Part shown: piece after piece, positions 31,989-39,273 of the stretch
How the letters are laid out: every line of letters begins with the position of its first letter
Numbering within the stretch: position 1 is the stretch's first letter
Source: a virus
IMG/VR virus record: IMGVR_UViG_3300032265_000302
Coordinates: 1 to 46,972 of that record
Direction: 5' to 3' (one strand)
DNA length: 46,972 nucleotides
Program-made: the position numbers and the translations under genes
The notes under the pieces: model-generated
Told to the model about the DNA's origin: nothing
The model's input: only the letters and a program-made list of their open reading frames with translations
Database searches by the model: none

Positions 31989-33167
31989 ATGGCGACGCTA
32001 GTTCTAAGACAATCAAAAGGCTCTCCTCTCACTAATACTGAAGTTGATACCAATTTTACCAACCTTAATGATGAGGTTGGAACTAAATTAGCATCATCTG
32101 CGTATACTGCTGCAGATGTCCTTACAAAAATTAAAACTGTTGATGGTACAGGTTCAGGATTAGATGCCGATTTAATCGATGGATTGAGTACCTCTGCTAC
32201 TACGCCAACTGCAACAGATAAAAGTTCTGTTGTAACACGAGATTCCAGTGGTAACATAGCTGCGGTTGCTGCAACTTTAACTGGATCATTGACAGGAACT
32301 ACTGCTACCTTTAGTGGAGCAGTTAACGTAGCTTCTATCAGTATTTCTGGTGGATCTATTCCAATTGGTGTAGGTGGTACTGGTGCAACAAATGCAACAA
32401 ATGCTCGCCAAAATCTTGGTCTTGAACTTGGAGTCAATGCCCAAGCATGGAACACTAAATTAGATTCAATCAGTGGCGTTACTTTTGCTGCTGACACACT
32501 TGCTTACTTCACTTCAGCATCTGTTGTTTCTAGCACGTCTTTACCAGCTTACGGTAGATCTTTAATTGCAGCAGCATCTTCTTCAGCTGCGCAAGCTGTT
32601 CTTGGGCTACGTCTTGGTACTGACGTCCAGCCAATGAGCTCTGAATTATCAGCTATTGGATCTTTATCTGCTACTGGTCTTGTCGTTAGAACTGCAGCAA
32701 ATACATTTACACCTAGAACTATTACTGGTGTAACAGGAGATATTGACGTTTCCAATGGTAATGGTGTTAGCGGAAACCCAGCTCTTTCAGTTGGCGCAAA
32801 CATTCCACGTTTGGCAAATAATAATACTTTTGCTGGATCTTCCAATACATTTTCAGGAACTGTTTATGCAGCCAGTTTCCAAGTTTCTTCTGATGCTCGC
32901 TTAAAAGAGAATGTTGAAACACTAAATAATGCTGTGGACACTGTTTGTCAATTACGTGGTGTTTCTTACCTAAAGGGTGGAAAACCAGAAATTGGTGTTA
33001 TTGCGCAAGAAGTAGAAAAAATTATGCCTTTCCTAGTTGGAGAAGACTCCGCTGGATATAAAACTGTGGCATATCAAAATATGGTTGGTCTTTTAATTGA
33101 AGCAATTAAAGAACAGAATAAAACTATCAAAGAATTAACAACTCGTTTAGAGAAATTGGAGAACTAA
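31989..33167 (+). CDS. Tail fibre with C-terminal S74 intramolecular chaperone
   Basis: The 392-residue protein starts TLVLRQSKGSPLTNTEVDTN, the pattern of T4-like fibre attachment ends, and has a Gly/Ser/Thr-rich shaft with IPIGVGGTGATNATNARQNL. Residues about 300-392 are a peptidase S74 chaperone (SSDARLKENVETLN, then IGVIAQEVEKIMPF and a closing coiled coil IKEQNKTIKELTTRLEKL). S74 domains trimerise fibres and then cut themselves off at the Ser before Asp-x-Arg. AAGGGAAA precedes the start. The Cys-rich gene follows one base later. Confidence 0.85.
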   Translation: MATLVLRQSKGSPLTNTEVDTNFTNLNDEVGTKLASSAYTAADVLTKIKTVDGTGSGLDADLIDGLSTSATTPTATDKSSVVTRDSSGNIAAVAATLTGSLTGTTATFSGAVNVASISISGGSIPIGVGGTGATNATNARQNLGLELGVNAQAWNTKLDSISGVTFAADTLAYFTSASVVSSTSLPAYGRSLIAAASSSAAQAVLGLRLGTDVQPMSSELSAIGSLSATGLVVRTAANTFTPRTITGVTGDIDVSNGNGVSGNPALSVGANIPRLANNNTFAGSSNTFSGTVYAASFQVSSDARLKENVETLNNAVDTVCQLRGVSYLKGGKPEIGVIAQEVEKIMPFLVGEDSAGYKTVAYQNMVGLLIEAIKEQNKTIKELTTRLEKLEN

Positions 33168-33168
33168 T

Positions 33169-33537
33169 ATGCCAGTAGCAGCTACAGGATTTAAAAGATC
33201 GGATGGTACAGACCTTAATGGTCTTTTTTGGACATGGCAAGGTGACGTTGGTAGCCGTAACGTAACAGACTCTAACGGTAATTGCGGTTGGAACTGCGCA
33301 TGTAACGCATGTAATAGTGCTTGTAACTGTGCCTGCGGTAACTGTGACGCAGCTGACCTTGGCTTTGGTATTGTTACCGACTGGCGCATTAACTTGTTTG
33401 TTTCTGGCGCATATAATGGTGCGGGTATCCGTCATGATTCCCAAGAACAATCACTGGGGCACTTCAGATATAATCGTGTAAATTGCAATTGTAACTGTGC
33501 TTGTAATTGTAACTGTGCTTGTAATTGTAACTGTTAA
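33169..33537 (+). CDS. Cysteine-repeat protein, candidate substrate of the radical SAM enzyme
   Basis: This 122-residue protein has 17 Cys in two blocks. Block 1 (39-59) has eight: C39, C43, C45, C48, C52, C54, C56, C59. Block 2 (106-122) has Cys at every second residue (106, 108 and so on to 122) alternating with Asn or Ala (NCNCNCACNC), and Cys is the last residue. Residues 1-38 and 60-105 look like an ordinary small beta-rich domain (DLNGLFWTWQGDVGS; GIVTDWRINLFVSGAYNGAG). Block 2 is coded by an 18-bp tandem repeat. GGAGAAC precedes the start. It follows the S74 fibre by one base, so it is probably a late virion-linked product. A strand with all Cys on one face could bind metal, form disulphides, or be cross-linked; the downstream radical SAM/SPASM enzyme makes modification plausible. 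No known family recognised. Confidence 0.75.
   Translation: MPVAATGFKRSDGTDLNGLFWTWQGDVGSRNVTDSNGNCGWNCACNACNSACNCACGNCDAADLGFGIVTDWRINLFVSGAYNGAGIRHDSQEQSLGHFRYNRVNCNCNCACNCNCACNCNC
33493..33534 (+). repeat. 18-bp tandem repeat coding Asn-Cys-Ala-Cys-Asn-Cys
   Basis: AACTGTGCTTGTAATTGT occurs at 33493-33510 and 33511-33528 without mismatch, followed by the first six bases again. It codes the C-terminal Cys block. Confidence 0.92.
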
Positions 33538-33546
33538 GGAATAACA

Positions 33547-34686
33547 ATGTTAAAGATATTTAAAATACTTGTAACTGGTATTGAAGGTCAAGATGGGATT
33601 GGCATTAATAGTACAGTTAGAACTACAATGGGATATGATAAGACTAAACAAGAAATTTCTCTTTTAGTTGAAAAAGTTATTCTCCCAGAAGTTCCTACAG
33701 ATAAAAATGTAGTATTGCGTGACCCACATACTACAGCAACATTTACAACTCTCTTGAGCAGAACATTTACTCCTAGTGATTTTTCAAAGATTGGTGAACT
33801 TAAACGCTGGCAAGTGGATTATGATGTAATTAAAAATGAATTGGTTATATTTGATGCATATGAATATAGTCTAACTAAAATTACTGGTAGTCAATCTGCA
33901 CGAAAAATTGCTCGTTTTGTTAAAGAACGCTATAATCATGATTTAATTCCGTTATTTTCTGTAGATAATGTTTACCAATCTTCTACAGATTTTGATACTT
34001 CTGTATTAACATTTTGGGTAGATGAAGTAGGACTTGATATTAACGATACAATTCTTATTAATGATGCCGTTGATGCAACAACTGTAACACAGCAAGAAAA
34101 AGAATTCTGGATGGTTTATAATGTTAATACTAATGTAATTTTTGAAGTTCTAAATGATGATAATAAAATTGTCTCTTCCACCGCACAGAAATCAGCTAAA
34201 CCAGCTGCACTCATTGCGAACCCAGTTCCAATGGTTCCAATGAATCTGGACGAAGATAATACAACAGCTACTCACATTATCTCTGATGGTGGTAATCAAT
34301 ATAAAGTTTGTTTGCCTGTAGCAGATTCATATAAAATTAGAATTGCCTATCAACGCCATTTGCACGATTTATTACCAGATCAAACAAAAGGTCCTGGAAC
34401 AGCGAGAGATGCATCTAGAAAGATGCCTGTTAGATTTGATATTGACTGTGTTAATGGTGTTTGTAATAGAACTAGATCTGTATCTAAAGGATATGAACAC
34501 TCGAATCCAGATGCTTTATCTGCTGCATATGAGGAATCTCACGTTGCTGGTCCAAAACCTTCTTTAGTTGGCGTTGACCAATTTATTATTGCAACTCACG
34601 GATTAGTAGTAGGCGATTTTATTAAATTAAAATTAAACTTAGGTAATTTTAAATCATATGCTGAACTTTGGATCGAATTAACTTAA
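33547..34686 (+). CDS. Unknown 379-residue protein in the Cys-repeat island
   Basis: I do not recognise this protein. The start (MLKIFKILVTGIEGQDGIGI) and LPEVPTDKNVVLRDPHTTA are followed by a mixed alpha/beta body. Three Cys occur late, one in YKVCLPV and two in DIDCVNGVCNR, a C-x4-C pair. The C-terminus has FIIATHGLVVGDFIKLKLNL. AAGGAA precedes the start, nine bases after the Cys-repeat gene, so the two are almost certainly cotranscribed. It could be a virion protein that carries the Cys-repeat protein, or part of its processing. No signal peptide or membrane segment. Confidence 0.6.
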   Translation: MLKIFKILVTGIEGQDGIGINSTVRTTMGYDKTKQEISLLVEKVILPEVPTDKNVVLRDPHTTATFTTLLSRTFTPSDFSKIGELKRWQVDYDVIKNELVIFDAYEYSLTKITGSQSARKIARFVKERYNHDLIPLFSVDNVYQSSTDFDTSVLTFWVDEVGLDINDTILINDAVDATTVTQQEKEFWMVYNVNTNVIFEVLNDDNKIVSSTAQKSAKPAALIANPVPMVPMNLDEDNTTATHIISDGGNQYKVCLPVADSYKIRIAYQRHLHDLLPDQTKGPGTARDASRKMPVRFDIDCVNGVCNRTRSVSKGYEHSNPDALSAAYEESHVAGPKPSLVGVDQFIIATHGLVVGDFIKLKLNLGNFKSYAELWIELT

Positions 34687-34694
34687 CATAAATA
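34687..34694 (+). promoter_or_regulatory. T4-type late promoter candidate for the radical SAM operon
   Basis: CATAAATA ends 31 bases before the radical SAM start and one base off the T4 late consensus TATAAATA. Confidence 0.5.
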
Positions 34695-34724
34695 CATTAT
34701 TATCACTACATTATAAGGGTTTAC

Positions 34725-36203
34725 ATGAGTAATTTTAAGCTGGTACTAACAGGTGCCAATGACGTGAAGCAGATTTTGATTTATGATCCTATGACTTCTG
34801 AAATGTATTGGGAAGAGGGTGGTCAAAAACCCACTCTCGTCCATATTTCAGAAGGACTTGAATATAGTTTAAATAGCAAAGTATGGACACCTGCTAAAGT
34901 GACTAATCCTCACGACCCAGAACTGCATGGGAAAAAATCAAGAAAGCCAACAACACTAAAAATCACAATGGGATTAAAGTGCAACTATGCATGTTCCTAT
35001 TGTAACCAAGCGCATCAGCCACACGAGCAAGTTGGTGGTAAAGAAGATGCTGATGAGTTGATTGCAAAAATGAAAGCTAATTTTGAATTTGGCACTTATG
35101 ACAAATTCCGTCTAGAGTTTTGGGGTGGTGAACCATTAGTGTACTTTAAAACGCTAAAACCTTTAGCTGAGAAAGTTAAAAAGGTTTATCCTAATGCTCA
35201 ATTTATGATGGTTACCAATGGTTCTCTTTTAGATAGAGAGAAAATTGATTGGTTTAATCGTATGGGATTTTCAATTGGTATGTCACACGATGGACCTCTT
35301 CATGCTCAAAATCGTGGACCAGATCCATTAGATGAACCAAAAGCAAAAGACGCAGTTGTATATGCTCTTAAAACAATGGGACAGGGTAGATTTACATTTA
35401 ACTGCGTATTAACTCGTGAGAATGTTTCTATCGCAAAAGTTCGTGATTTTATTTGTGACAAACTAAATCGAAAAGATTTGGGTTATGAACATATTGAAGT
35501 AGATCAACGAGAGTTGCAAGTAACAACAGAAGAATTAATGTTACCATATGATGATTCTGGTATGGCTCACTCTTTACAGACTATTGATGAAAAGAAAGAA
35601 ACAGTTCATGCTTTGTTTTGGGAAACTATTGAAGCAAAGAATGCATTTAGTTGGACTGTTGATCAAAAAATTAAAGGATTCTTTGAATCTATTGTTTATG
35701 GTCGTCCAGCTGAAGTAGTTGGTCAGAAATGTGGTATGGATAAAGAAGATAATCTTGCCATTGATATGAAGGGTAATGTTACTACTTGTCAAAACACCTC
35801 GTCATTGACCAAACATAATATTGGCAATATTGAAGATATGGAAAATGTTAGATTAACCAATTCATATCATTGGTCCACTAGAGCAGAATGTCCTTCTTGC
35901 CCAGTTGTTCAGTTATGCCAAGGTGCTTGTTTATTCCTTGAAGATCAATACTGGTCAGCAGCATGCGAAAATTTATTTCACTATAACCTAGGACTGCTAG
36001 CTTCGTCATTATTCATTATGACTGATGGTTTAGTTTTAACTGAAATCCAAGGTGACAAGATTAGGTTTGATAATGTTAAATCTTACCCAGTTATTGACAT
36101 CGATTTTGTCAAATCTGGTGGTACTAAGAAGTCTTGGAAAGTACGTAAACCAATAAATATTCCAATTATCCAAGCTCCAGTGGTGGTTGGCGAGATTGAA
36201 TAA
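34725..36203 (+). CDS. Radical SAM/SPASM enzyme, RiPP-maturase-like
   Basis: This 492-residue enzyme has an N-terminal extension of about 75 residues, then the radical SAM core: CNYACSYC (Cys86, Cys90, Cys93) for the catalytic 4Fe-4S cluster, FWGGEPL (133-138) for SAM binding, and MVTNGSLL. A SPASM region follows with seven Cys at 336, 355, 389, 392, 398, 402 and 414 (QKCGM, VTTCQ, CPSC, LCQGAC, AACEN), able to hold two auxiliary clusters as in anaerobic sulfatase-maturing enzymes and sactipeptide synthases. Such enzymes modify Cys, Ser or peptide backbone by radical chemistry. No sulfatase is encoded here. The Cys-repeat protein two genes upstream is the best substrate candidate (inference). 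A late promoter motif precedes it and AAGGGT precedes the start. Confidence 0.88.
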   Translation: MSNFKLVLTGANDVKQILIYDPMTSEMYWEEGGQKPTLVHISEGLEYSLNSKVWTPAKVTNPHDPELHGKKSRKPTTLKITMGLKCNYACSYCNQAHQPHEQVGGKEDADELIAKMKANFEFGTYDKFRLEFWGGEPLVYFKTLKPLAEKVKKVYPNAQFMMVTNGSLLDREKIDWFNRMGFSIGMSHDGPLHAQNRGPDPLDEPKAKDAVVYALKTMGQGRFTFNCVLTRENVSIAKVRDFICDKLNRKDLGYEHIEVDQRELQVTTEELMLPYDDSGMAHSLQTIDEKKETVHALFWETIEAKNAFSWTVDQKIKGFFESIVYGRPAEVVGQKCGMDKEDNLAIDMKGNVTTCQNTSSLTKHNIGNIEDMENVRLTNSYHWSTRAECPSCPVVQLCQGACLFLEDQYWSAACENLFHYNLGLLASSLFIMTDGLVLTEIQGDKIRFDNVKSYPVIDIDFVKSGGTKKSWKVRKPINIPIIQAPVVVGEIE

Positions 36204-36517
36204 TGGCTTTCTTAGATTGTAAAATCTGGGAGATTAGGAAGTTTCCCAGATATGGTAAACAATATAATAGGTTTTGTATAGAAAATATAGTAGAATATAG
36301 TTCAGATACTAAGGTATACCAGAACAATAATGTTAATATACAAATACCTGAATTTGAATTGGTTGCAACACAGGAACAGCTAGAATTTGTTTATAAATAT
36401 AAAGATGAAATTATAGCAAGAAACATTCCAGTAATTGTAAATTCGCTAAATAATATTAAAGAAACGTGGTCTGTAGACCTCTTTAAAGCAAACTTTTTAA
36501 AATACCTGAATAGGTAA
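36203..36517 (+). CDS. Small unknown protein coupled to the radical SAM gene
   Basis: The 104-residue protein starts FLDCKIWEIRKFPRYGKQYN and is mixed alpha/beta with a helical C-terminus (FVYKYKDEIIARNIPVIV). Its ATG overlaps the radical SAM stop (TAATG), so the two are probably made together. A size of about 100 residues next to a radical SAM maturase would suit a substrate-recognition (RRE/PqqD-like) partner, but I see no diagnostic motif. Function unknown. Confidence 0.55.
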   Translation: MAFLDCKIWEIRKFPRYGKQYNRFCIENIVEYSSDTKVYQNNNVNIQIPEFELVATQEQLEFVYKYKDEIIARNIPVIVNSLNNIKETWSVDLFKANFLKYLNR

Positions 36518-36530
36518 GGAGAACCAAGAA

Positions 36531-37478
36531 ATGAACAAAAAACATGTAAAATGGGTTATCGCCCACGAGCCAATCGGTCTATTTTTAAAAGTAGCTGATA
36601 GCTTCGCAAAAGAAGTTAATGAACAAACTGGTGGACAGTTTGACATTGAAGTTCTTTCAATTACAGATTACTCTACCAAGTATAACGCTGGCAAGCCAGT
36701 TGGTAAGCAAGACCTAATGGAATTGATCAATAATGGCACTATCGAAATGAGCCATATCTACACTACTTGGTTAGCTGACTACAATAAAGATTTGAACGCA
36801 TTGGATCTACCATTCTTGTTCAAAGACCATGACCACGCTGATCGTGTTTTAGAAGGTGAAATTGGAACTACTCTATTAAATGATGTTTCCAAGCAATCAA
36901 ACATCAAGGCAATGTCATTCACTTACTCTGGTGGTTTCCGTGTTGTTCCTGCTAACTTTAAAGCAACTTCTGTTGAGTCTTTCACTCATCGTAAAGTTCG
37001 TACTAGCCGTAGCCCAGTTGCTATCGAAACATTTAAAGCACTTGGTGCTCAGCCAAATCATATGGTTCAGTTGGAGCAAATGAACGAAGCTGCTGATAAG
37101 AATATTATCTCTGCTGGTGAATCTACATACGTACGTATTTTCCCACTTGATCAAGATAAATCTTTCAAGTATATCAATGATACTGCTCATAGTTTGTTCT
37201 TGACTTCTATCATTATTAACCAGGACTTCTTCAAGTCTGTTGGTCTTGATGTTCAAGAAATTATGTCTAAAGCTGCATTTAATGCTGCTCGCAAAGAGCG
37301 TCGTGAATCAGTTGCTGATATTCCTAATATTCTTGCTGAGTGTGAAGCACGTGGCGTTGAAGTTGTTACAATGTCCGCTGAAGAAAAGGCTAAGTTTGAA
37401 GCTGTAACTTCTACAGTATACGAGAAGTTTGCTGATTACTTCACTCCAGGATTGGTTAAGAAGATTCAGTTACAGTAA
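36531..37478 (+). CDS. TRAP/DctP-type solute-binding protein lacking a signal peptide
   Basis: The 315-residue protein follows the DctP periplasmic receptor pattern: NALDLPFLFKDHDHADRVLE, then GFRVVPANFKATSVESF (Arg137), the KVRTSRSPVAIETFKALGAQ block (Arg157, normally the carboxylate-binding Arg) and a helical C-terminus. Normal receptors are exported; here the N-terminus (MNKKHVKWVIAHEPIGLFLK) has no hydrophobic signal sequence and the first strand already begins at about residue 5, so the protein should stay in the cytoplasm or go into the virion. No TRAP membrane subunits are nearby. AAGGAGAA precedes the start. A strong hairpin follows. Possible roles are small-molecule binding for the island, a virion decoration or an inactive scaffold. 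Confidence 0.75.
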   Translation: MNKKHVKWVIAHEPIGLFLKVADSFAKEVNEQTGGQFDIEVLSITDYSTKYNAGKPVGKQDLMELINNGTIEMSHIYTTWLADYNKDLNALDLPFLFKDHDHADRVLEGEIGTTLLNDVSKQSNIKAMSFTYSGGFRVVPANFKATSVESFTHRKVRTSRSPVAIETFKALGAQPNHMVQLEQMNEAADKNIISAGESTYVRIFPLDQDKSFKYINDTAHSLFLTSIIINQDFFKSVGLDVQEIMSKAAFNAARKERRESVADIPNILAECEARGVEVVTMSAEEKAKFEAVTSTVYEKFADYFTPGLVKKIQLQ

Positions 37479-37492
37479 TTAAAAACTGCTGA

Positions 37493-37499
37493 CTAAATA
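37493..37499 (+). promoter_or_regulatory. T4-type late promoter candidate before the PP-loop gene
   Basis: CTAAATA sits directly before the UUCG hairpin, 41 bases ahead of the PP-loop ATG. The hairpin begins where transcription would start. Confidence 0.4.
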
Positions 37500-37522
37500 G
37501 TGGGGAGCTTCGGCTCCCCACT
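37499..37522 (+). terminator. UUCG-loop hairpin terminator after the DctP-like gene
   Basis: A 10-bp perfect stem with a TTCG tetraloop (core GGGGAGC-TTCG-GCTCCCC), followed after three bases by ATTTT. The core stem is the same sequence as the gp32 terminator at 6066. The short T-tract means read-through is possible. Confidence 0.75.
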
Positions 37523-37540
37523 GCCATTTTGAAGGATATT

Positions 37541-38596
37541 ATGAAGCAGATTTTATTTTACAATAACGGATTTATTAAACAAGTTGTTCCACGTGAACCT
37601 GAGATTCTAAAAGATTATCTTGTTAACGAAGACTTGTTTTATTTTTATGATAAACATAAAATGAATCTTAATAATGTTTATGATAGAACAGGAAATGTTC
37701 CTCACTATCTAAACATGAAACCAAACTTACTACCAATACCAGATGCAACTGGATTCAATAAGTCTTTTGAGCAGGTCGTTAAAGAACGATGCTTTGAAAT
37801 ACTTTCTTTGGGTAAACGTATAAACGTAGTTTGGAGTGGCGGGATTGATAGTACGTTGGTTCTATTTGCATTAATTCATTATGCAAAGGACCCATCTTTA
37901 ATTACGGTTTATGGAACCTATAATTCAATTATGGAATGTGGGGAATTATTTGACAAGTATATTTTACCTACAGGGGTAAAACATAAAATTAAGATATCAT
38001 CAAAAAGAGATTTTGATGACTGTGGTGAAGATGAAATTTTTGTAACAGGATTCTTTGGAAACCAACTATTCGGTCCAACGGATGATTTTACCAGCAATAA
38101 AGTAAAAACTGATGTTTCATTTTTCCACCATCAGTTCACTGGCGATCCGCTAGATGATTATACTAAATACATAGATGCTGAGCTGCACGAGTTTATGTTA
38201 CCTTGCATTAAAGCAAGTCCCAAGAAAATTGAAACTCTCAGGGATTTACGCTGGTGGTTTATTTTTAATCTTGATTGGTATACAGCTGAGTATTCATCTA
38301 AAGTGAGCACTAAACAGGTAGACAACCAATATCACTTCTTCGGTACAGATGATTTTCAGCGTTATGTTTTAACCACTAAAGACCCATTCACTAAAGAAAC
38401 TGGAAATGCTTTAACCCATCGTTGGGTCATGCGTGAACTTATTGAAGAGTACAGCGGAGATAGTTACTATGCTTGGAACAAACCAAAAGGGGTTTCCAAC
38501 CTAGGAAACCCCGTACCAACATGGTTATTACTGTTAGAAGATTACAGTTTATTCTATCTTCCTAAAAATGCGTTTAACGTCCAAATCCAACCTTAA
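37541..38596 (+). CDS. PP-loop, asparagine-synthase-like ATP-dependent enzyme
   Basis: The 351-residue protein carries a PP-loop, VWSGGIDSTLVLFAL (SGGIDST at 99-105), which binds ATP as AMP plus pyrophosphate, and a second motif FVTGFFGNQLFGPTDD (168-183) resembling the GDELFGGY region of asparagine synthetases. It has no N-terminal glutaminase domain. In asparagine-synthase-like lasso cyclases and amidotransferases this domain activates a carboxylate; substrate here unknown. ATG 37541 is chosen because GAAGGA lies just upstream; a TTG at 37529 opens the same frame. It overlaps the oppositely oriented gene by 23 bases at its 3' end. Confidence 0.7.
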   Translation: MKQILFYNNGFIKQVVPREPEILKDYLVNEDLFYFYDKHKMNLNNVYDRTGNVPHYLNMKPNLLPIPDATGFNKSFEQVVKERCFEILSLGKRINVVWSGGIDSTLVLFALIHYAKDPSLITVYGTYNSIMECGELFDKYILPTGVKHKIKISSKRDFDDCGEDEIFVTGFFGNQLFGPTDDFTSNKVKTDVSFFHHQFTGDPLDDYTKYIDAELHEFMLPCIKASPKKIETLRDLRWWFIFNLDWYTAEYSSKVSTKQVDNQYHFFGTDDFQRYVLTTKDPFTKETGNALTHRWVMRELIEEYSGDSYYAWNKPKGVSNLGNPVPTWLLLLEDYSLFYLPKNAFNVQIQP

Positions 38597-39221
38597 TATT
38601 TAACGTTGCGTAGGTTTGAGTTTTGTCAAGGTTAGTTTCTATATAACGTAGCATGTGTCCTGGAGATACAAAAATTTCTCCAACCTTACCTTTAATTTGG
38701 AAACTTGCACCGACTAGATTCTGCGCAACATAATGACGAATTACATGTGCACCACCACGAGTATCTGCAAAATATGTTGGGGGAATATATTCTCCACCAT
38801 GCATTACTAAGGTAAATACTAAAGGAACGTGCTCATAGCAATGCAATGGAATATGTTCAAATGGTTGCTGGAACAATACATTACTACCAATAATTACTGG
38901 AGTATATTGCAGTTCTGTATTAAATTCTGGAAGATCTTGACAGATTGTATAGATAATCTCTTTGAGTTTTTCTACGTAAAGGTTATCTTCAACATTCATT
39001 AAATCTGCAATTTTTTCTGGATCAGCTGCACCTTCAGCAGAGATTTGGCTGATTAGATCGATAAACTCTTTATCGTTCCAGTTTAATCCATCCAGTTTGT
39101 CTGGGTTAATATCGAAACTTTTAAATGATGACGAAAATAGCTCTCGACTATCGGTGACTACTACTAAGTCTCCACTAGTCTTTGGGGTTTCTGCTTGAGG
39201 TTGTTCGGTTTGATTTTCCAT
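38574..39221 (-). CDS. Possible 2OG-Fe(II) oxygenase-type beta-helix protein
   Basis: The 215-residue protein has a disordered acidic N-terminus and a C-terminal half resembling phage 2OG-Fe(II) oxygenases: IPLHCYEHVPLVFTLVMHGG, TYFADTRGG, GEIFVSPGHMLRY and ETNLDKTQTYATLNIKVGF. The His pair near 127-131 and His189 could be metal ligands and the late strand order fits, but the canonical HxD dyad is not clear, so activity is uncertain. The ATG at 39221 has GGAG five bases upstream; an in-frame GTG lies six bases earlier. It is the only - strand gene in the region and is driven from the divergent gap at 39222-39341. Confidence 0.5.
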   Translation of the reverse strand: MENQTEQPQAETPKTSGDLVVVTDSRELFSSSFKSFDINPDKLDGLNWNDKEFIDLISQISAEGAADPEKIADLMNVEDNLYVEKLKEIIYTICQDLPEFNTELQYTPVIIGSNVLFQQPFEHIPLHCYEHVPLVFTLVMHGGEYIPPTYFADTRGGAHVIRHYVAQNLVGASFQIKGKVGEIFVSPGHMLRYIETNLDKTQTYATLNIKVGFGR

Positions 39222-39273
39222 AGTCACTCCATAATAGGGTTAAAATAAGTTCGCTTTCACGCAAATCTCATTA

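Follow-up and report, generated by a model that had tools for sequence, protein, structure and literature searches.

Introduction

Why the tail region of a phage should carry a dedicated radical SAM enzyme beside a protein exceptionally rich in Cys is the question raised by the locus described here. The DNA analysed (the window; all 46,972 nucleotides of IMG/VR record IMGVR_UViG_3300032265_000302) is the tail region of a T4-like phage, and an earlier, sequence-only reading had treated seven of its genes as one system in which the radical SAM enzyme might act on the Cys-repeat protein as a virion-linked substrate. That reading knew of no described phage system of such layout, and none was found in the open-access literature, a paper elsewhere being possible; descriptions of "NCNCNC", of Asn-Cys together with radical SAM, or of radical SAM maturation of phage fibres were likewise not found there.

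Results and Discussion

Layout of the locus and the Asn-Cys unit

On re-examination of the window sequence, every gene listed earlier was found in its place, and the island is indeed flanked by fibre genes. On one side stands a tail-fibre gene with a C-terminal S74 (endosialidase-type) chaperone domain (31989-33167, + strand; PF13884, E=3.8e-14, together with PHROG tail-fibre matches), and more fibre genes stand on the other. The S74 fibre gene lies directly 5' of the gene for the proposed substrate, CysP (33169-33537, + strand), a position kept in relatives, and the synteny of the cassette is kept in approximately 20 distinct IMG/VR contigs.

CysP has 122 residues and, as had been described, 17 Cys and an alternating C-terminus: eight Cys fall in an internal block (residues 38-59; 33280-33345, + strand) and nine in a terminal ladder, NCNCNCACNCNCACNCNC (residues 105-122; 33481-33534, + strand), made up of nine consecutive Asn/Ala-Cys units in invariant or near-invariant alignment columns. 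The ladder Cys codons are a mixture of TGT and TGC and the Asn codons a mixture of AAC and AAT, indicating that the pattern is kept at the protein level; an origin of the ladder as a DNA microsatellite is ruled out by these mixed codons. No match to CysP was found among named phages, and profile searches of the Pfam/PHROG type gave no family match for this 122-residue protein.

Among ladder proteins, Asn precedes 80% of the Cys residues outside the ladders, the internal block of CysP among them, whereas it precedes only 3.6% of those in neighbouring proteins, suggesting that the unit is the Asn-Cys dipeptide, which is also present singly, outside the alternating run. Within ladders, Asn is replaced by Ala (16%) or Asp (6%), so the chemistry of the Asn side chain is perhaps dispensable. 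The ladder is the end of many unrelated tail-fibre proteins; most ladder-bearing candidate substrates are long fibre proteins, and the ladder proteins (n=67) have PHROG tail-fibre and Pfam collagen matches. The ladder is C-terminal, and where residues follow it, a Hint autoprocessing domain often begins immediately after its end, as in the Achromobacter phage JWF.

Co-occurrence of ladder and enzyme

The earlier reading had proposed co-occurrence as a check on the pairing of the Cys-repeat gene with the radical SAM enzyme, and the pairing held from both sides; the occurrence of either gene without the other as a rule, which that reading had named as a refutation, was not seen. Among ladder open reading frames with at least 3 kb of downstream sequence, 44 of 47 are followed by a radical SAM gene, and the three without it are short frames that do not resemble tail proteins. 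From the enzyme side, non-redundant loci with at least 5 kb of upstream sequence (n=102) carry a same-strand ladder in 84 cases, compared with an opposite-strand ladder in 5; the median same-strand distance, taken over divergent phages and prophages, is 1.4 kb. Chance co-location is ruled out by both search directions and their controls. One exception is a small clade of relatives of the enzyme that pairs with YcaO and lacks a ladder.

The link between enzyme and substrate is therefore strong, and the radical SAM enzyme very probably modifies the ladder. The core of the earlier idea is sustained by the co-occurrence and the tail-fibre matches, with incorporation into virions being presumed from homology, a circumstance that also weighs against the maturation reading developed below. 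The grouping of all seven genes into one system is not supported: the DctP, PP-loop and p104 genes form a lineage-specific module that has become joined to different lineages of the radical SAM enzyme.

Class of the radical SAM enzyme

The enzyme (492 residues; 34725-36203, + strand) matches PF04055 above the cut-off and phrog_1802 with E=1.3e-63. Its CxxxCxxC triad (C86, C90 and C93; 34980-35003, + strand) and the seven auxiliary Cys of the SPASM region (C336, C355, C389, C392, C398, C402 and C414; 35730-35966, + strand) are invariant in 25 relatives, which bears out its earlier assignment as a radical SAM/SPASM enzyme with seven auxiliary Cys. The nearest characterised profile models include maturases of the PapB, CcpM, SCIFF and QhpD types, and the closest are mostly Cys-linking or cyclophane enzymes. 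Relatives in the PDB include the solved structures of anSME and of the SCIFF maturase CteB, with the epimerase YydG among the weaker matches.

The window enzyme scores 80 bits against a curated cut-off of 340 for the PapB model (NF047865), 61 against 453 for QhpD (TIGR03906), 65 against 349 for anSME and 57 against 180 for viperin. All 25 enzymes match the QhpD model, the best at 1.9e-22, which is far from equivalog level. With scores far under every curated cut-off, the reaction is not transferable from any named family. QhpD is a radical SAM/SPASM enzyme that makes Cys-to-Asp/Glu thioethers not in a peptide but in a protein subunit, during maturation of quinohemoprotein amine dehydrogenase. 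The phage enzyme resembles it in having a protein as the candidate substrate, but the substrate itself (QhpC in that system) and the context differ.

The ranthipeptide maturases (PapB/PapA, CteB and CcpM) share with the phage system a radical SAM enzyme with a full SPASM domain and a Cys-rich repeat substrate gene beside it; PapB joins Cys to Asp even when the two are adjacent (CX0D), though incompletely (PMC9413430). In contrast to these systems, the phage substrate would be a tail-fibre C-terminus with an Asn-Cys sequon, not a short leader-bearing precursor peptide, and a recognition domain of the PqqD/RRE type was not found in the radical SAM enzyme or in Partner.

Partner and exchangeable accessory genes

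Between the ladder and the radical SAM gene lies a member of a divergent family, here called Partner (379 residues, Ig-like region at the C-terminus; 33547-34686, + strand), which is present in 48 of 77 fully covered loci. Its AF2 model (pLDDT 77.5) has no match in the PDB at E<=0.001, and a PDB profile search with Partner returned nothing useful.

Downstream, the start of p104 (36203-36517, + strand), a small protein of 104 residues with no assigned function, overlaps the stop of the radical SAM gene by one base, as had been noted. It is followed by a protein of the DctP fold (TRAP solute-binding family; 36531-37478, + strand) that was said to lack a signal peptide; its PF03480 domain (E=2.8e-47) begins at residue 20, and neither a hydrophobic leader nor any other export signal precedes it. 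The PP-loop enzyme (N-type ATP pyrophosphatase; 37529-38596, + strand), whose frame as listed begins at the TTG at 37529, carries the motif SGGIDS (37835-37852), and SGGxDS is present in 17 of 18 relatives. The PP-loop part of its earlier description as asparagine-synthase-like is thus well founded, but the likeness to asparagine synthetase is confined to the motif: the PDB profile match covers only about 30 residues (E=0.0019), and homology to nitrile or asparagine synthetases does not extend beyond it. The nitrilobacillin pathway, in which an asparagine-synthetase-like nitrile synthetase and iron oxygenases act on a peptide C-terminus (PMC13060819), offers a parallel in pairing a PP-loop enzyme with such oxygenases; it differs in that only the PP motif region matches, the setting is a phage, a radical SAM enzyme takes the place of the MNIO, and no glutaminase domain was seen. 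A PP-loop gene accompanies the p104 family in 14 of 15 loci and DctP in 11 of 12.

The last gene (38574-39227, - strand) had been read as a possible 2OG-Fe(II) oxygenase. Its predicted fold agrees (model pLDDT 76; Foldseek matches 3bvc at 3.7e-06 and 2rg4 at 1.6e-05, with a double-stranded beta-helix), but it lies on the opposite strand and its metal site is poorly conserved, with the distal His present in 2 of 18 family members and replaced by Tyr in the others. Activity of the window protein is therefore doubtful, and its gene is probably an optional part. At most other loci, the place of the DctP, PP-loop and p104 genes is taken by real 2OG oxygenases, and 2OG families, an Asp/Asn beta-hydroxylase among them, are found repeatedly beside the radical SAM gene. 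The DctP and PP-loop genes and the 2OG oxygenases are exchangeable add-ons; as lineage-specific genes, they are ruled out as core parts. 2OG and PP-loop genes occur together at zero loci (Fisher p=4e-4). The PP-loop state changes only four times on the tree, too few for a paired sign test to reach significance, so a functional swap is only hinted at.

Alternative explanations

The strict alternation at the tips of fibre proteins could also be read as a metal needle, in which inward Cys of a trimeric fibre hold metal ions or Fe-S stacked in a column, while the radical SAM enzyme makes another change, e.g., on Asn, or prepares the site. The precedent is T4 gp37, whose trimeric tip repeats an inward ligand pattern, X-L-X, at HxH iron sites (PMC11705849). 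The phage ladder, however, has Cys for His (the window ladder follows a Cys-X-Cys pattern and has zero His), is continuous at the extreme C-terminus and is linked to a radical SAM enzyme. A metal site has no need of such a dedicated enzyme, which is nevertheless linked in almost every case, and single Asn-Cys dipeptides occur outside the alternating run; this explanation is accordingly considered unlikely. In another reading the enzyme would invert alternate residues, giving an L/D ladder in a beta-helix that places Asn on one face and Cys on the other. Polytheonamide has a comparable alternating Asn-X core and forms an L/D beta-helix, and the weak YydG match points the same way. Epimerisation nevertheless leaves the fixed Cys partner and the single Asn-Cys units unexplained, and Cys-linking or cyclophane enzymes predominate among the nearest models, which makes it somewhat less likely still.

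The anSME models and structures among the relatives, and the annotation of the JWF enzyme as an anaerobic sulfatase-maturating enzyme, raise the prospect that an anSME-type reaction oxidises ladder Cys to formylglycine-like aldehydes and so leaves a reactive tip that could bond amines of the host surface. A CxPxR-like context is absent, Asn-Cys is unlike known anSME sites and the anSME score is far under its cut-off, so this chemistry is judged very improbable. Scarcely any weight is given to the view that the radical SAM gene is a passenger, a host-metabolism or defence gene of viperin or sulfatase type hitch-hiking in a variable fibre region. Cargo does accumulate in such regions, and radical SAM cassettes are found in the host-recognition clusters of pelagimyophages (PMC7029224), which are likewise T4-like and have these genes among their tail-fibre genes; the accessible part of that report names no Cys-ladder substrate, and its radical SAM genes are candidate kin of those described here. 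A passenger would not account for the close same-strand linkage across divergent phages and prophages or for its recovery in the reverse search direction, and the enzyme has a full SPASM domain and a viperin score well below the cut-off. Viperin-like defence and host sulfatase maturation are both disfavoured by the SPASM architecture, the linkage and the scores.

Proposed mechanism

The preferred reading is that the system would carry out post-translational maturation of a tail-fibre tip, and its computed basis consists of the genes, their synteny, the two-way co-occurrence, the Asn-Cys unit, the fibre context and the position of the Hint domain. The substrate would be a virion fibre protein with a C-terminal Asn-Cys run and further Asn-Cys dipeptides nearby, on whose units the radical SAM/SPASM enzyme dedicated to it, the product of a gene a short way downstream, would act, with the Ig-like Partner as the usual adaptor or assembly factor. 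Maturation of the ladder through a sulphur-to-carbon linkage of some kind is rather probable. The likeliest reaction would be an oxidative link from each Cys sulphur to a carbon in a neighbouring residue, for which the first candidate is the Asn that shares its dipeptide (a thioether, minus 2 Da per link); thioether chemistry on the Asn-Cys units specifically is put forward tentatively, as a possibility close to evenly balanced. The product may be a compact C-terminus free of thiols and resistant to protease and redox, and a mechanical or adsorption role of such a modified tip is conceivable, if somewhat more speculative. In phages with a Hint domain after the ladder, its self-removal would expose the ladder. 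Accessory enzymes might decorate the tip further, 2OG oxygenases in most lineages and the PP-loop, DctP and p104 proteins in the lineage of the window.

Conclusions

Overall, these findings may, though this is advanced with reserve, reveal a widespread and unrecognised phage route to receptor-binding tips, in which an Asn-Cys sequon at the fibre C-terminus is converted to a rigid non-standard tip by a phage radical SAM enzyme together with exchangeable 2OG oxygenases, PP-loop/DctP proteins and desaturases. If so, the route would, to our knowledge, provide the first virion protein matured by a radical SAM enzyme as well as a new code for protein modification. Cultured members exist (the temperate Achromobacter phage JWF and phage 2-1, along with candidate prophages in Limnohabitans), and the claim is therefore directly testable. 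If it is true, radical SAM chemists would have a natural family of substrates that is large and carries a clear Asn-Cys sequon, and the presence of radical SAM genes among the fibre genes of aquatic phages would have a reason. Adsorption structures may then bear enzyme-made cross-links that are invisible to sequence and structure prediction, which would change the understanding of fibre tips and host range.

The tail-fibre locus and its relatives

The window covers tail genes of a contractile, T4-like phage; proteins recognised there are those of the tail tube and its cap, the lysozyme-bearing baseplate hub and the baseplate wedge. All genes that the sequence-only reading listed between fibre genes are present: an S74-chaperone fibre gene (31989-33167) is followed by genes for CysP, a 122-residue Cys-repeat protein (33169-33537), a 379-residue Partner, a radical SAM/SPASM enzyme (rSAM, 34725-36203), p104, a DctP-fold protein and a PP-loop enzyme; next comes a 2OG-fold gene (38574-39227) encoded on the opposite strand, and from 39342 onward there are more fibre genes. 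The proposed 2OG oxygenase was borne out in its fold, yet its distal metal His is not conserved across its family. Of the 17 Cys of CysP, eight lie within an internal block and the other nine in its C-terminal NCNCNCACNCNCACNCNC, an [Asn/Ala]-Cys run termed the ladder; the CxxxCxxC motif and seven SPASM Cys of the rSAM are invariant in an alignment of 25 diverse relatives.

Searches of IMG/VR located 25 loci with a CysP relative and 17 with a close relative of the rSAM (66-84% identity). CysP and the rSAM recur in the same order; loci with enough sequence read S74 fibre, CysP, Partner, rSAM, p104, DctP, PP-loop and the reversed 2OG-fold gene, with two exceptions (loci L014 and L018/L046), the latter retaining CysP and the rSAM with an oxygenase and two desaturase-like genes in between. 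Because Asn and Cys codons are mixed within the ladder in 16 relatives, the ladder is kept as protein sequence.

Two-way linkage of ladder and enzyme

IMG/VR was scanned for DNA encoding NCNCNCxC. Among the matches listed, an rSAM accompanied 53 of 74 in-frame tail-type ladders, 1/32 out-of-frame chance matches and 0/13 small zinc-type proteins (CKNCNCNCHC). Ladders lacking the enzyme were mostly on contigs that break off early; with at least 3 kb downstream, it was present for 44/47 among the matches listed, and the three remaining were frames of 33-71 residues, unlike tail proteins. Small ladder proteins (e.g., ...DDYSTACNCNCNCNCTRGIL) also occur close to radical SAM genes that are more distantly related and in some cases present in several copies (L076, L163, L083, L069, L153); they may form another branch of this kind of system. 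Very small viral proteins of a distinct family, KCKNCNCNCHC...C.SCQ or similar (L062-L065, L070, L080, others), are probably metal-binding; the rSAM was not found near them.

An enzyme-first search of GTDB genomes and IMG/VR with the 25-sequence rSAM alignment returned 80 loci from each; because the ladder-first search supplied some of the alignment rows, the two directions are not fully independent. GTDB genomes, many of them MAGs, included Limnohabitans, Burkholderia, Rhodobacteraceae, Magnetospirillum and Bradyrhizobium. After collapsing at 90% identity and requiring at least 5 kb upstream (n=102), a same-strand ladder was present at 84 loci (median distance 1.4 kb) and an opposite-strand ladder at five; of the 18 without a same-strand ladder, at least four have looser Cys ladders or ladder-protein relatives (L193, L312, L311, L319). 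Neither gene thus occurs without the other as a rule. Most ladder-bearing proteins match tail-fibre or collagen-like tail families. In one rSAM clade that lacks ladders (L220, L226, L233, L248), the adjacent gene encodes a large protein with a YcaO domain (PF02624, tested on L220), which suggests a separate bacterial pathway for peptide modification. Four enzyme matches, one short, in Thalassobacter stenotrophicus genome G003 (L230, L235, L332, L335, L337) suggest several prophages or copies.

The sequence-only reading had treated the seven genes as one island, which did not hold: Partner was found in 48, 2OG oxygenases in 42 and PP-loop genes in nine of 77 fully covered loci. The oxygenases were mainly PF13759, with PF13640 and the Asp/Asn beta-hydroxylase PF05118 also present. 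PP-loop genes never co-occurred with them, an exclusion not significant in a tree-aware test owing to too few state changes. Since the DctP of the window shares 62-75% identity with that of loci whose rSAMs are only 35-39% identical and sit in separate parts of the tree, the exchangeable DctP/PP-loop module probably joined ladder systems on more than one occasion. Genes of the fatty-acid-desaturase family are found repeatedly in other ladder loci (PF00487, tested on L327; also L263, L284, L304, L316, L325, L236).

The Asn-Cys unit and its placement

In 58 non-redundant ladder proteins, the residue before a ladder Cys is Asn in 233 of 334 cases, Ala in 53 and Asp in 21. Asn also precedes 168/210 of their non-ladder Cys, although it makes up 9% of residues; the corresponding share of Cys for neighbouring proteins is 3.6%. 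The position after Cys is much less constrained. The natural reading of these sequences is that Asn-Cys would be the modification unit and the ladder many such units in series.

The intended place of the ladder is the C-terminus, from which it lies 0-9 residues away in 74/88 enzyme-first cases. Sequence past it is often a Hint domain, whose first Cys (CFPAG...MA.G) directly extends the ladder in 8/9 proteins examined, including that of Achromobacter phage JWF; the ninth (L285) has three Gly in between. Placement in phage 2-1 is as in JWF. We infer that this domain cleaves, which would leave the ladder at the protein end. A conserved 'SKIICxKL' domain replaces Hint in phages with several oxygenases; it spans ~170-185 residues at the C-terminus of ladder proteins (L311, L315, L318-L320, L323, L325, L327 and L082), where the rSAM gene is followed by three or four genes for 2OG oxygenases. 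In its database record the JWF enzyme (L053, KP202971.1 31659-33023) bears the name 'anaerobic sulfatase-maturating enzyme' and the adjoining fibre that of 'Hom_end-associated Hint family protein', names that both hide the ladder system.

Candidate chemistry

The best model scores of the enzyme, all far below cut-offs, were for PapB, CcpM, DynA and nif11 maturases; QhpD and SCIFF models also match, and PDB matches include anSME and CteB structures. Several of the matched maturases produce Cys thioethers, and QhpD acts on a protein subunit. PapB can link adjacent Cys and Asp, though incompletely (PMC9413430). For these reasons Cys-S-to-carbon links within or between Asn-Cys units are favoured over a metal needle, epimerisation, aldehydes or hitch-hiking of the enzyme gene. 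The proposal of a virion-linked substrate is strengthened by the two-way linkage and the tail-fibre matches, and its product chemistry is argued from related enzymes: the fibre tip is very probably the substrate, judging from gene linkage, while a thioether product, by analogy, has slightly less than an even chance.

Conclusions

Close enzyme relatives among 50,697 phage records were restricted to the temperate siphovirus JWF (PMC3899368) and 2-1. Radical-SAM cassettes have been noted in pelagimyophage host-recognition clusters, and the passages describing them mention no Cys ladder (PMC7029224). In agreement with the sequence-only reading, no published ladder and rSAM phage system was found in the open-access literature searched. 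The enzyme type is already known; the substrate class, Asn-Cys sequon and phage context appear new. The proposed links would give a compact, thiol-free fibre tip, for which a role in hardening or adsorption is a tentative suggestion.
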